Translations under genes and position numbers: made by a program | Shown here: one piece after another, positions 28,287-32,594 of the stretch | Layout of the letters: each line of letters begins with the position of its first letter | Position numbering within the stretch: the stretch's first letter is position 1 | Notes under the pieces: model-generated | What the model saw: only the letters and a program-made list of their open reading frames with translations | Told to the model about the DNA's origin: nothing | Database searches by the model: none | Assembly (NCBI GenBank): GCA_903921785.1 | Contig: CAIXRH010000221.1 | Span: 1 to 52,158 of the forward strand | Origin: an uncultured Pseudomonadota bacterium | Lineage (GTDB): Bacteria; Myxococcota_A; UBA796; SXON01 | Direction of reading: 5' to 3' | DNA: 52,158 bases

Positions 28287-29123
28287 TCAGTCGAGCAGGT
28301 CAGCCTCGGGAGCGCTGGCGGGGTCCAGCTCGGGGCCGCCGGGTCCCGGAGGGGCCTCGGTTGCGGACAGCGCCGCGTCCGGCGGGTAGTCCACGCTCAC
28401 CAGGTAGAGCCCGTGCGGGCGGGCGGTCCGCCCGGCCTGCGAAGGGTCGCGGGCGGCGAGCGCGGCGGCGAGCGCCTCCGGGGGCCGACGGCCATCCCCG
28501 ATCTCGAGGAGGGTGCCCACCATCCGACGAACCTGGTAGCGCAGGAAGCCGTTGCCATGGAAGACGAGGTGGTGCTCACCCCCGCCGAGGTCGATGTGCT
28601 CGGCCCGATCGATGGTCCGGATCGGGGAGCGCGCGGTGCACCCCGCCCCCCGAAACGTGCTGAAGTCGTGGGTGCCCACGAGCGCCGGCAGCGCCGCCTC
28701 GATCGCCCGCCAGCTCATCGGGCGCTTGAGGTGTAGCGCATACCCGTGCGAGAACGGGCTTCGATCTCTCCGTTCCAGCATCCGGTACCGGTAGGTCTTT
28801 CCCAACGCCGAGAACCGAGCGTGGAACCGATCCGGCACGACCCGCGCGTCGATCACCGAGATCTCGGGCGGCAACGCCGTGTTCAGGCCCATCCGGAGCT
28901 TGTTCGGGTCTCGCGGCTCGTCTGCCCGGAAGGTGATCACCTGCCCGAGCGCGTGCACCCCGGCGTCCGTGCGCCCGCTGCCGTTGACGATCACCCGCTC
29001 CACGTGGAAGTGGTGCGACAGGGCCGCCTCCAGGGTGGCTTGCACCGTCGGCGCGTTCGGCTGGGTCTGGAACCCGGAGAACGCACGGCCATCGTACTCG
29101 ATCGTCAACCGCCAGGTCGCCAC
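28287..29123 (-). CDS. truA: tRNA pseudouridine(38-40) synthase
   Basis: This 278-residue TruA enzyme isomerises uridines 38-40 in the anticodon arm of many tRNAs. The catalytic Asp is D53 in the GRTDAGVHALGQV motif. The N-terminal IEYDGRAFSGFQTQP and the C-terminal FLRYQVRRMVGTLLEIGDG are family signatures. The last 30 residues (Pro/Gly/Glu-rich) extend past the fold. It starts 10 bp after the stop of the 818-residue outer-membrane protein gene, so it is probably the last gene of the operon that starts with the USG-1-like gene. Confidence 0.95.
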   Translation of the reverse strand: MATWRLTIEYDGRAFSGFQTQPNAPTVQATLEAALSHHFHVERVIVNGSGRTDAGVHALGQVITFRADEPRDPNKLRMGLNTALPPEISVIDARVVPDRFHARFSALGKTYRYRMLERRDRSPFSHGYALHLKRPMSWRAIEAALPALVGTHDFSTFRGAGCTARSPIRTIDRAEHIDLGGGEHHLVFHGNGFLRYQVRRMVGTLLEIGDGRRPPEALAAALAARDPSQAGRTARPHGLYLVSVDYPPDAALSATEAPPGPGGPELDPASAPEADLLD

Positions 29124-29133
29124 CGCGGCGCGC

Positions 29134-31590
29134 TCAGTAGTCGAACTTGAGGCCGAACGTCACCTCGGTGGAGGTGAAGTCGAGCTTCTTGTCGCCCAGG
29201 CTGTAGGTCTGCTGGTACTCGGCCACGAGGTAGGTGTCGTTGATGCCGGCCGTGGTCTCCAGGCGGCTCGCGGAGCCCTCGTCGATGCCGTCGAGGAGGA
29301 GGAAGAGCCCGGCGCCCCAGTGCCAGCCGAAGGTGCCGGCGGTGGTGTCCCCGCCGCCGGAGGCGTCGTTCGAGGAGCTCCAGGTCTCATTCCAGATCCA
29401 GGCGTCGCCGCCGAGGCGCGCGAACGGGACCACCGGCTGCTCCTTCCAGAAGTCCAGCCGCAAGGTGCCCTCCAGCGACAGCGGGAACGCGGTGAGCTTG
29501 TCGGAGTCCGAGGAGGTGGTTCCGTCCGTGGTCGACTGGCCGCCGGTGTCGCTGTACAGACCGAAGCCCAGGTCCACCTGGAAGAGGTTCTTGGTGTAGC
29601 CGATGTTGCCGCGCAAGAGCCGGTTGTCCGTGCTGCCGAACGCGTCGGTCAGCACCGCCGAGTCCTGGGTGAGGAACGGGCCGTAGCGCAGCTCGAAGTC
29701 CCAATTCCGCGGGGTGAGATCGTCCTCGTGGGGCGCAGCGTGGGCCACCGCCGGCGCGCCGAGCGCCACCAGCACCGCCGCCGCCCCGACGACCCGACCG
29801 GCCGCCCGCGAGGCGCCCCCCGAACCGCGACGGCGCCGAACCACCGCGAACGCCGCCGCCACCGAGCCGAGCCAACCCGCGCTCTCCAGGGGCAGGCCGC
29901 ACCAACTCTCGATGCCAAGGCGCTCGGAGACCGAGAAGGTCTCCTCGGGGGTGACCGCGTAGACGTCGGACATGGGGCTCTTCTCCTCGGTGCCGTCTTC
30001 GGCGACGTCGACCGCCTGGGCGGCGACGTAGTAGGTGGTTCCGTTGGTGACGCCGTCGATCACGCAATCGACGACTCCGTTTTCTGGGAAGGCAACCAGC
30101 CCGTCGACCGGCCAGTCGTCGGGGCCTACGTAGTCCGGCCCGTCCACGGGGTATTCGTCGGCGGTCCAGGGCTCGGTGCTCACCCAGATCGGGTAGGACT
30201 GGGCGGACGTCGCGTCGAACGCATCGAAGAGGATGCGGATGCGCTGGTCGCCAAAAGAAACGGTCGTCCCGTCGATCGTCGGCGTGGGGGCCGGCGAGTT
30301 CACGTAGATGTAGGTGCCGTCCCGCCCGTACATCGCCCCGCCGTTGGTCGGGGTGACCCGAACCTCGACGAGGTAGCGGGCGTCGGCGTTGTCCACGGCG
30401 GGGAGTGAGACCTCGGCGGTGGCGCTCTCCCCCGCGGCGATGGCGCCGCTCGCCCCGTCGACCGCCGTCGGCTCCAGCCCGCTCGCGGCGACCTGCTGGT
30501 ACACCTGCCACGTGCCCTCGGCATCGGCGGTGAAGCTGAGGGTGAAAACCTCGTCGGGCGACACGGACGTCGCCGAGGCCTGGGTGATCTCCACCCACGG
30601 GCGGTCGGTGACCACCTGCACGCCGCTCGCCGTGGCGAGGAAGCCGTACCCGTTGATCGTCGCGACGTCGACCGTGCCGGCGCCCTCGGGAATCTCGGCG
30701 AGCTGGTCCCCGATCGTGGTGCCCGAGTAGGCGTAGACGTTGAGCCCGCTCGAGGTGGCGAGGCCCAGCCAACCGTCGAGCATGCTGCCGCCGATGCCGG
30801 TGGTGGGCCCGAGATCGGGGCTGCTCGGGGAGGTGATGTCGAGGTCGGCGCCGTCGCTGGCCTGGTAACCATACGAGGTGCTGGAGCCGCCGTTGGCGAA
30901 CCAGGTGGCGGAGCCGGACTGATCCACCCAGACGTCATTGATGTCGAACGATCCCTCGTTCTCGCTGTCACGCGTGGCGGTGGCCGAATCGGTCCCCAGC
31001 GCGATGCGGGTGAGCTGGGCGCCGCCGTGCGCCACGTACATGAAGCTCGCCGAGACAGCACCGGTGTCACTGGAGGTGAACCGGGCGTCCATCGCCTGGA
31101 AACCGTCCTGCGGCAGGTCGGTGACGGTGGTGTACCTGGCGGTGTAATTCCCGCTGGTGATGTCGTAGGCCTGGAGCGACGGCCCGTTGGCGACGTCTTC
31201 GTAGAGCACGTAGAGCGACGAGGAGTCCGCCACGACGGCGAGCGGATCGCCCGGCACGGAGAACCGACCGTTGAAGGCAGGGTTGCTCCCCGCCACCAGG
31301 GTCCACACGCCCACCTCGTTCGACGAGAGCCCGGCGTACATCATCGGCGTCGCGCCGCTCCCGCCGAAGGTCACGCCGCCGGACACGGTGGCGCCGTCCA
31401 CCGTCACGTCCTGGGCGGTCCACGTGCTGGTGTCCACCAGTCCGAGCTGCCCGCCGGCGGTGACCAGCCCGACCCACGAACCATCCGGCGACGAGGCCAC
31501 CTGCGTGACCGCCGTCGTCGTCTCGGCGCTCCACGCCGCGTGATCCGGCGCCGCGAACGCCGCAGACGCCGTCAGGTACAACCCGATCAT
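29134..31590 (-). CDS. Fused surface beta-propeller, MYXO-CTERM-like segment and outer-membrane barrel
   Basis: This is an 818-residue protein. A short signal peptide (residues 1-14) is followed by a beta-propeller-like part (about 15-330), two beta-sandwich or Fn3-like segments (about 330-555), then Cys564, a hydrophobic stretch 571-584 and R585-R588, the layout of a MYXO-CTERM-type sorting tail. In the same frame comes a second signal-peptide-like stretch (V600-A618, VAHA|AP) and about 195 residues of alternating beta strands ending in FDY, as in outer-membrane barrels. No stop separates the halves. Internal GTG codons (V577, V583) could start a separate barrel protein with RRRR as its n-region. 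The ATG overlaps the upstream stop (ATGA). Confidence 0.75.
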   Translation of the reverse strand: MIGLYLTASAAFAAPDHAAWSAETTTAVTQVASSPDGSWVGLVTAGGQLGLVDTSTWTAQDVTVDGATVSGGVTFGGSGATPMMYAGLSSNEVGVWTLVAGSNPAFNGRFSVPGDPLAVVADSSSLYVLYEDVANGPSLQAYDITSGNYTARYTTVTDLPQDGFQAMDARFTSSDTGAVSASFMYVAHGGAQLTRIALGTDSATATRDSENEGSFDINDVWVDQSGSATWFANGGSSTSYGYQASDGADLDITSPSSPDLGPTTGIGGSMLDGWLGLATSSGLNVYAYSGTTIGDQLAEIPEGAGTVDVATINGYGFLATASGVQVVTDRPWVEITQASATSVSPDEVFTLSFTADAEGTWQVYQQVAASGLEPTAVDGASGAIAAGESATAEVSLPAVDNADARYLVEVRVTPTNGGAMYGRDGTYIYVNSPAPTPTIDGTTVSFGDQRIRILFDAFDATSAQSYPIWVSTEPWTADEYPVDGPDYVGPDDWPVDGLVAFPENGVVDCVIDGVTNGTTYYVAAQAVDVAEDGTEEKSPMSDVYAVTPEETFSVSERLGIESWCGLPLESAGWLGSVAAAFAVVRRRRGSGGASRAAGRVVGAAAVLVALGAPAVAHAAPHEDDLTPRNWDFELRYGPFLTQDSAVLTDAFGSTDNRLLRGNIGYTKNLFQVDLGFGLYSDTGGQSTTDGTTSSDSDKLTAFPLSLEGTLRLDFWKEQPVVPFARLGGDAWIWNETWSSSNDASGGGDTTAGTFGWHWGAGLFLLLDGIDEGSASRLETTAGINDTYLVAEYQQTYSLGDKKLDFTSTEVTFGLKFDY

Positions 31591-32594
31591 GCTTCCCCCT
31601 CCGCGGTGAGCCCCGCGCCGAAGAGCGCCTCCGCCAGCGCGATGGGCACCGCGGCCCCCGCCCCGGCCACGTTGTCCGCCGCCAGCCAGAGATGCACCCC
31701 GTCGCCGCCCGGATCCGGCCGTACGCCGCCCCAGTACACCGCGCCGCGCCCCATCACCTTGCGCGGCCGGAGGGTACGCAGCCGCGCCGCCGTGGCGAGC
31801 CCGGCCCCCTCGCGGAGGGCGGCCTCCACTGCGTCGATGTTCTCGACGCCGCGGAGGTGCAACGCCGCGGTCATCCCCGAGAAGACCGGCTGGGTGCAGC
31901 ACATCACCGCCACCCGCTTCGGGTTCACCCCGAGGAGCTCGGAGACCTCGCTCGAGAGCGCCAGCTCCCGCGTGCTCCACTCGCCGGGGTCCGCATCTTC
32001 GGGCAGCGTGTCGAAGGCCAGGCCCTCCGGAAAGCGCCGCCGCGGCGGGTCCTTGAGGTTGAACGACGCCACCACCTGCTCAGACAGCTCCTCCGTGGCA
32101 TCACGCCCGTAGGCGTTGGCCGGGAGGTTGATGAGCCCGGTGACGGTGTGCACGCCGAGCGGCAGGAGTGGAGCGAGCAGCGTGGTGACCAGCCAGCCGG
32201 GCGCGCTGGGGGTGCGGGCGCCGCCAGCGCGGGCGATCTCGACCTCGGGCAGCGTACGCACCCCCGGGAGCACCAGCGGCCCCGCGAAGATGCCGGCGGT
32301 GTTGTTCCCGATGTCGATGGTGATCGCGCCGCGCGCCGCGAACGACGGCACCAGCTTCTGGGCGACGGCGGGCGGCAGGGCGGAGAGCACCATCTGGGCG
32401 CCGGAGTCCGCCGCCTCAGCGACCGGCCGGACCGTGAGGCTCCGTCCGCGGTACTCCACGACCTCGCGGCGGGTGGCGCGCGACGCGTACACCGACAGCT
32501 CAGCGTGGGCGAGGGCGCTCTCGGGCAACCGGGCGAGCAGGGCTTCGCCCACCGCTCCAGTGGCCCCGAGGATGGCGAGGGCAGGTCCGTTCAT
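31587..32594 (-). CDS. USG-1-like paralogue of aspartate-semialdehyde dehydrogenase, active site lost
   Basis: This 335-residue protein has the ASADH fold: N-terminal NADP motif ILGATGAVG (8-16), the SALPPAVAQKLVPSF segment, and the dimerisation-domain stretch AYGRDATEELSEQVVASFN. The catalytic region reads TPSAPGWLVTTLLAPL where true ASADH has NPNCST, so the nucleophile Cys is Ala131 by alignment. The catalytic His of GHS is also replaced (PVFSGMT, Met241). It therefore looks like the non-catalytic USG-1 group known in enterics and pseudomonads, with unknown role. TAGAGC ends 7 nt before the ATG, so it probably opens the operon with the 818-residue protein and truA. Confidence 0.85.
   Translation of the reverse strand: MNGPALAILGATGAVGEALLARLPESALAHAELSVYASRATRREVVEYRGRSLTVRPVAEAADSGAQMVLSALPPAVAQKLVPSFAARGAITIDIGNNTAGIFAGPLVLPGVRTLPEVEIARAGGARTPSAPGWLVTTLLAPLLPLGVHTVTGLINLPANAYGRDATEELSEQVVASFNLKDPPRRRFPEGLAFDTLPEDADPGEWSTRELALSSEVSELLGVNPKRVAVMCCTQPVFSGMTAALHLRGVENIDAVEAALREGAGLATAARLRTLRPRKVMGRGAVYWGGVRPDPGGDGVHLWLAADNVAGAGAAVPIALAEALFGAGLTAEGEA

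Follow-up and report, generated by a model that had tools for sequence, protein, structure and literature searches.

A single reading frame joins a MYXO-CTERM-like propeller protein to a predicted outer-membrane barrel across an order of uncultured myxobacteria

In the window, that is, the whole 52,158-nucleotide stretch of myxobacterial DNA analysed here, one open reading frame of 818 codons joins a beta-propeller protein with a MYXO-CTERM-like tail to a predicted outer-membrane barrel that is preceded by its own signal peptide (Table 1). The host belongs to an order of uncultured freshwater myxobacteria, and the protein is present in 60 of 63 genomes of that order, including all 27 of the good ones. 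Nearly all carriers keep one frame, with the junction open in every family, and orthologues are roughly 40-57% identical within the window's genus and, at the level of the order, about 30%. As judged from these sequences, conservation of the fused frame across an order is more than chance. We propose that the product is probably one precursor, a bacterial polyprotein, that would form a hairpin across the inner membrane and be cut on each side of it.

An initial annotation of this DNA had offered three explanations for the open frame: a long polypeptide cut at the membrane, an internal GTG serving as a second start, and a stop codon missing through sequence error. The last could draw on the fragmentation of the source assembly (362 contigs) but is excluded, because orthologous genes with the fused frame appear in dozens of independent genome assemblies. 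The first is the best supported of the three, with cleavage itself a prediction. Two public MAG records with the fused gene (L195 and L204) are titled Klebsiella pneumoniae, a label that looks wrong.

Table 1 Features of the fused gene and its neighbours (window coordinates)
Feature	Coordinates	Strand	Basis or remark
Fused ORF, 818 aa	29134..31590	-	Frame reading and orthologues
First signal peptide, MIGLYLTASAAFA	31552..31590	-	Very short, without positive charge
Beta-propeller, residues 17-330	30601..31542	-	AlphaFold2 model, PDB propellers
Ig-like (333-430) and fn3 (~440-548)	29947..30594	-	AlphaFold2; fn3 part matches NF045522
Cys564, invariant; predicted lipidation and myxosortase site	29899..29901	-	Orthologue alignment
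TM1 of MYXO-CTERM-like tail, residues 565-584	29839..29898	-	Sequence, orthologues, AlphaFold2
RRRR585-588, tail end and presumed n-region of second signal	29827..29838	-	
In-frame GTGs V577 (29860-29862) and V583 (29842-29844)	29842..29862	-	Proposed internal starts
Second signal core, residues 600-618, with predicted signal peptidase I site AxA (616-618)	29737..29793	-	
Predicted eight-stranded outer-membrane barrel, residues 619-818	29137..29736	-	NF040596 homology, OmpA/OmpW-like fold
Upstream neighbour, presumably asd	31587..32594	-	Synteny conserved
Downstream neighbour, presumably truA	28287..29123	-	Synteny conserved

The fused frame and its two halves

The frame runs from an ATG at 31590 to a TGA at 29134 with no internal stop, and the propeller and barrel that the initial annotation had read from it both appear in an AlphaFold2 model. 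The elements listed for the junction are likewise all present: Cys564, a hydrophobic stretch, RRRR585-588, a signal-like segment at 600-618 that reads ...APAVAHA, and a C-terminal FDY, together with GTG codons at V577 and V583. The ATG overlaps the stop codon of the upstream gene (31587-31590), which we take to encode aspartate-semialdehyde dehydrogenase (asd); the downstream gene is presumably the tRNA pseudouridine synthase gene truA. This order of asd, fused gene and truA (28287-32594) is kept across the whole order of bacteria, and truA adjoins the barrel gene in many families throughout the phylum. The first signal peptide has only about 13 residues, and many orthologues start in a similar way (MLLLLALANA, MILLLLPAFA).

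The model of the 818-residue protein, built with 44 orthologues, has a pLDDT of 87.6. It places a propeller at about residues 17-330, an Ig-like domain at 333-430, an fn3 domain at 440-548 and a helix at 572-586, followed by a low-confidence region (586-624) over the second signal and eight barrel strands at 630-817. Modelled alone, the barrel has a pLDDT of 86.9, and its best structural matches include a Legionella porin, OprF, OmpA, NspA and OmpW (Z 14-17), while the propeller matches many solved PDB propellers. Sequence searches of PDB with the barrel and of Pfam with the whole protein returned no matches.

Both halves can be placed in known families, MXAN_2561 (NF045522), whose members are MYXO-CTERM-anchored proteins, and MXAN_2562 (NF040596), whose members are outer-membrane barrels. 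The barrel matches NF040596 over its whole length with 90.3 bits (E 1.3e-25), just under the curated cut-off of 100, and is homologous to that family. The fn3 part matches NF045522 weakly, at about 20 bits against a cut-off of 150, although 42 of 45 orthologue N-halves match the same model at E<=1. A literature search on MXAN_2561, MXAN_2562 and Bd0486 found nothing on any of them.

The junction and its predicted processing

The 45 fused orthologues share one junction layout: a Cys, a hydrophobic stretch of about 20 residues, an Arg cluster, a second hydrophobic stretch of 15-28 residues, an AxA motif and a mature start. The Cys, the Arg cluster and the AxA are each found in 45/45, with 19-27 residues from Cys to Arg and 15-28 from Arg to the cut, the cut being set by a rule that favours AxA. 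An independent alignment of 44 orthologues shows C564 and A616 to be invariant and R586 and A618 to be at least 90% conserved; these are the residues on which a myxosortase and signal peptidase I would depend.

The invariant Cys, transmembrane helix and Arg-rich cluster that define MYXO-CTERM are present in all 45 orthologues, the window protein included. Their usual position at the extreme C terminus is not, as 230 residues follow the RRRR. The window protein gave no match to TIGR03901 even at E<=10. At E<=1, TIGR03901 is matched by 12 of 45 orthologue N-halves and TIGR03382 by 3, and a fused outgroup protein (L159) scores 24.9 against TIGR03901, with a cut-off of 20. One divergent MrtX-like CPBP protein is encoded in the genome (108 bits, curated cut-off 180). 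The second signal has an internal signal peptidase I pattern in 45/45 orthologues (positive n-region, hydrophobic core, AxA, polar mature start) and is thus a predicted substrate. Because nothing lies between them in most orthologues, the Arg cluster serves there both as the end of the first tail and as the second signal's n-region; its position between two hydrophobic stretches suggests that both halves are placed in the periplasm.

Under the proposed mechanism, the first signal peptide would route the propeller-Ig-fn3 part through Sec, TM1 would act as a stop-transfer segment, leaving the Arg cluster in the cytoplasm, and TM2 would serve as an internal cleavable signal that takes the barrel across into the periplasm. 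Cleavage after AxA618 by signal peptidase I would then free the barrel to fold into the outer membrane, and a myxosortase-like protease would cut at Cys564, probably after lipidation, releasing the propeller part to the outer membrane or the cell surface. After both cuts, about 55 residues would be left as a hairpin, and the surface lipoprotein-like partner and its outer-membrane barrel would be synthesised in equal amounts. We infer both cuts, the lipidation, the final locations and the pairing of the products from these sequence signals. The first cut is the less sure, because the window tail falls under TIGR03901 detection and the MrtX-like protein is divergent.

Those same two observations, with the MrtX-like protein below its cut-off, would fit a single cut, in which signal peptidase frees the barrel and the propeller half keeps a degenerate MYXO-CTERM tail, remaining in the inner membrane or being shed in some other way. 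We regard this as improbable given that the Cys is invariant in 45/45 orthologues, 12 of which have tails that match TIGR03901. It is very improbable that the fused chain escapes cleavage and functions as a single hairpin-tethered protein. Beyond the open frame itself, the support for this reading is a proposal, in a study of M. xanthus, that uncleaved MYXO-CTERM proteins are partly at the surface in an mrtX mutant (PMC11980579). Against it, the AxA is kept in all orthologues and the gene has split naturally into two. In the AlphaFold2 model, moreover, only about 11 residues separate AxA618 from the first barrel strand; such a linker is too short to span the periplasm, and we infer that the barrel can arrive in the outer membrane only after release.

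Internal initiation would give a different product: the barrel would be made separately from an in-frame GTG, ATG or TTG in the tail, the two genes being nested and their products not fused. Composition alone puts start codons in most junctions, V577 and V583 included; separate gene pairs elsewhere often overlap by 4 or 1 nt, as with translational coupling; and short uncharged signal peptides occur in the order. However, neither GTG has a Shine-Dalgarno match of at least 4 nt, and no conserved internal start position or Shine-Dalgarno sequence was found among the 45 fused orthologues. Eligible internal starts occur in 37 of 45 orthologues, compared with 34 (s.d. 2) after synonymous shuffling, so they are not enriched. 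Shine-Dalgarno matches of at least 4 nt stand before eligible internal starts in 5/45 orthologues, compared with 25/45 for the assigned gene start.

A strict test, requiring a positive n-region and at least 13 residues, left 8 of 45 orthologues without an internal start. Because a signal peptide in this order may be very short and lack charge, a start after the RRRR has to be reckoned with in most orthologues, and a relaxed test that allows for such peptides sought ATG, GTG or TTG, as opposed to non-standard starts such as CTG, from the Cys to nine residues before the cut. By this test, a start codon is missing from one of 45 fused genes in the order (L019), from L122 and L129 outside the order, and from 5 of 24 genes of the second, TraAB-like family described below (L239, L240, L241, L250 and L261). 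L159 is left out of this count, the cut having been misplaced for L159 and L128. With eight fused genes lacking any canonical start in the needed stretch, internal initiation cannot be general. For those eight genes the sequence all but compels a single polypeptide, which would also be the simplest reading of the remaining ones. Truly split genes, by contrast, show a stop plus a start of their own. We therefore consider it unlikely that V577 or V583, or another codon of the tail, acts as a second start, and retain the single precursor as the preferred reading.

Fusion and fission across the phylum

Whether orthologues are separate or fused, a check that the initial annotation had put forward, has a twofold answer: this order and several further families have the halves fused, and elsewhere they are separate and often overlapping. 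Throughout the phylum, the MXAN_2561 and MXAN_2562 families occur as adjacent genes or as one frame. Among the 32 separate pairs with a recognised MYXO-like tail, 23 show an overlap of 4 or 1 nt, with start codons picked by rule. A tree of 140 barrels contains at least 16 changes between fused and separate states, at least 11 of which are forced by well-supported branches; the fused arrangement, on this tree, arose many times. The order forms one group in the barrel tree, with a support of only 68, beside sister orders of the same class in which the two genes are separate, and this placement makes it likely that the fusion dates to the stem of the order.

Within the order, the reverse change is seen in only one genus, nested in the window's family, in which the tail ends in an Arg-rich stretch and a stop before the barrel. 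In most genomes of this genus, no more than about 12 nt separate the stop from a new ATG, which opens a frame with a signal of its own. The separated genes of this genus are, from their nested position, a secondary fission. At two loci (L166 and L167), no barrel match was found.

Four families outside the order have fused proteins in which CFI-box-CTERM (NF041770; 68-99 bits, cut-off 40) takes over the position of MYXO-CTERM before the same barrel. The corresponding loci are L116, L118, L154 and L156. This replacement hints that CFI-box-CTERM, too, serves as a tag for sorting or anchoring in the envelope.

Known systems and a second fused gene

FbcH of Bradyrhizobium, the cytochrome b/c1 precursor, is a polyprotein with an internal signal at which signal peptidase cleaves it. 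It differs from the protein described here in that its products are inner-membrane respiratory subunits, it is cut once and it has no sorting tag. A literature search on FbcH and on bacterial polyproteins with internal signals found nothing useful. To our knowledge, bacterial polyproteins with two outer-membrane fates are hardly known.

The closest likeness in homology is to the MXAN_2561/MXAN_2562 pair, which has homologous halves in the same order beside truA and often asd. That pair is often two separate overlapping genes, whereas here there is one frame with a beta-propeller in its N-half. TraA and TraB, encoded by overlapping genes, are a MYXO-CTERM surface protein and an outer-membrane barrel protein that act in outer-membrane exchange (PMC11980579). 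The fused protein likewise pairs a MYXO-CTERM-type protein with a barrel, but its domains are unrelated and it bears no sign of kin recognition.

The nearest likeness in layout is MXAN_5598 of Myxococcus xanthus, a protein with an internal MYXO-CTERM that Guo, Haft and Wall (2025; PMC11980579) described as atypical and perhaps a fusion; they proposed that its N-terminal part undergoes processing and becomes anchored to the cell surface. Like the window protein, it has a single frame with an N-terminal surface region, an internal MYXO-CTERM and then an outer-membrane barrel; it belongs to other protein families, has an OmpA domain and stands as one atypical case. The description of the frame as unusual was thus partly right: the same layout was already in the literature, and an internal MYXO-CTERM joined to a barrel is known from the one published mention that we found. 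In its passages on MXAN_5598, that paper does not discuss a second signal and cut site, recurrence or order-wide conservation, and our literature search found no paper on the fused propeller-barrel pair. Order-wide conservation, repeated fusion and fission, the shared Arg cluster and the dual sites are therefore new relative to the published case.

The same genome holds a second example. It encodes more than 50 MYXO-CTERM tails above cut-off, and 54 of the 55 other tails that could be placed end within 37 residues of a stop codon. The sole exception (L232:225-3854, on contig C326 of genome G000) is a protein of 1209 aa with TSP3 repeats, an internal MYXO-CTERM, a second signal ending PAHA, a barrel-like region and an OmpA domain. 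It has similarity to TraB and the layout described for MXAN_5598, is TraAB/MXAN_5598-like and is unrelated to the propeller-barrel protein; its gene is fused in relatives as well. The genome also has a related TraA-like/TraB-like pair (L268, G000:C337:54000-60500) that consists of two separate genes, and its TraB-like protein begins MLLLLAAAASA.

We suggest, tentatively, that dual-cut polyproteins might be a general and repeatedly invented device of Myxococcota that supplies a surface protein and its barrel partner one to one. Loss of the stop in an overlapping pair would turn tail and signal into a hairpin sharing the Arg cluster; a single genome would use the device in at least two unrelated families, and CFI-box-CTERM, where it substitutes for MYXO-CTERM, would be a second sorting tag. 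The fused gene links two families, MXAN_2561 and MXAN_2562, for which our literature search came up empty, and its natural fused and split versions offer a direct test of how an internal sorting tag and an internal signal peptide are processed. The same pair would allow the handling of a non-terminal tag by myxosortase to be tested, as well as the role of the barrel as partner or exporter of the surface protein.
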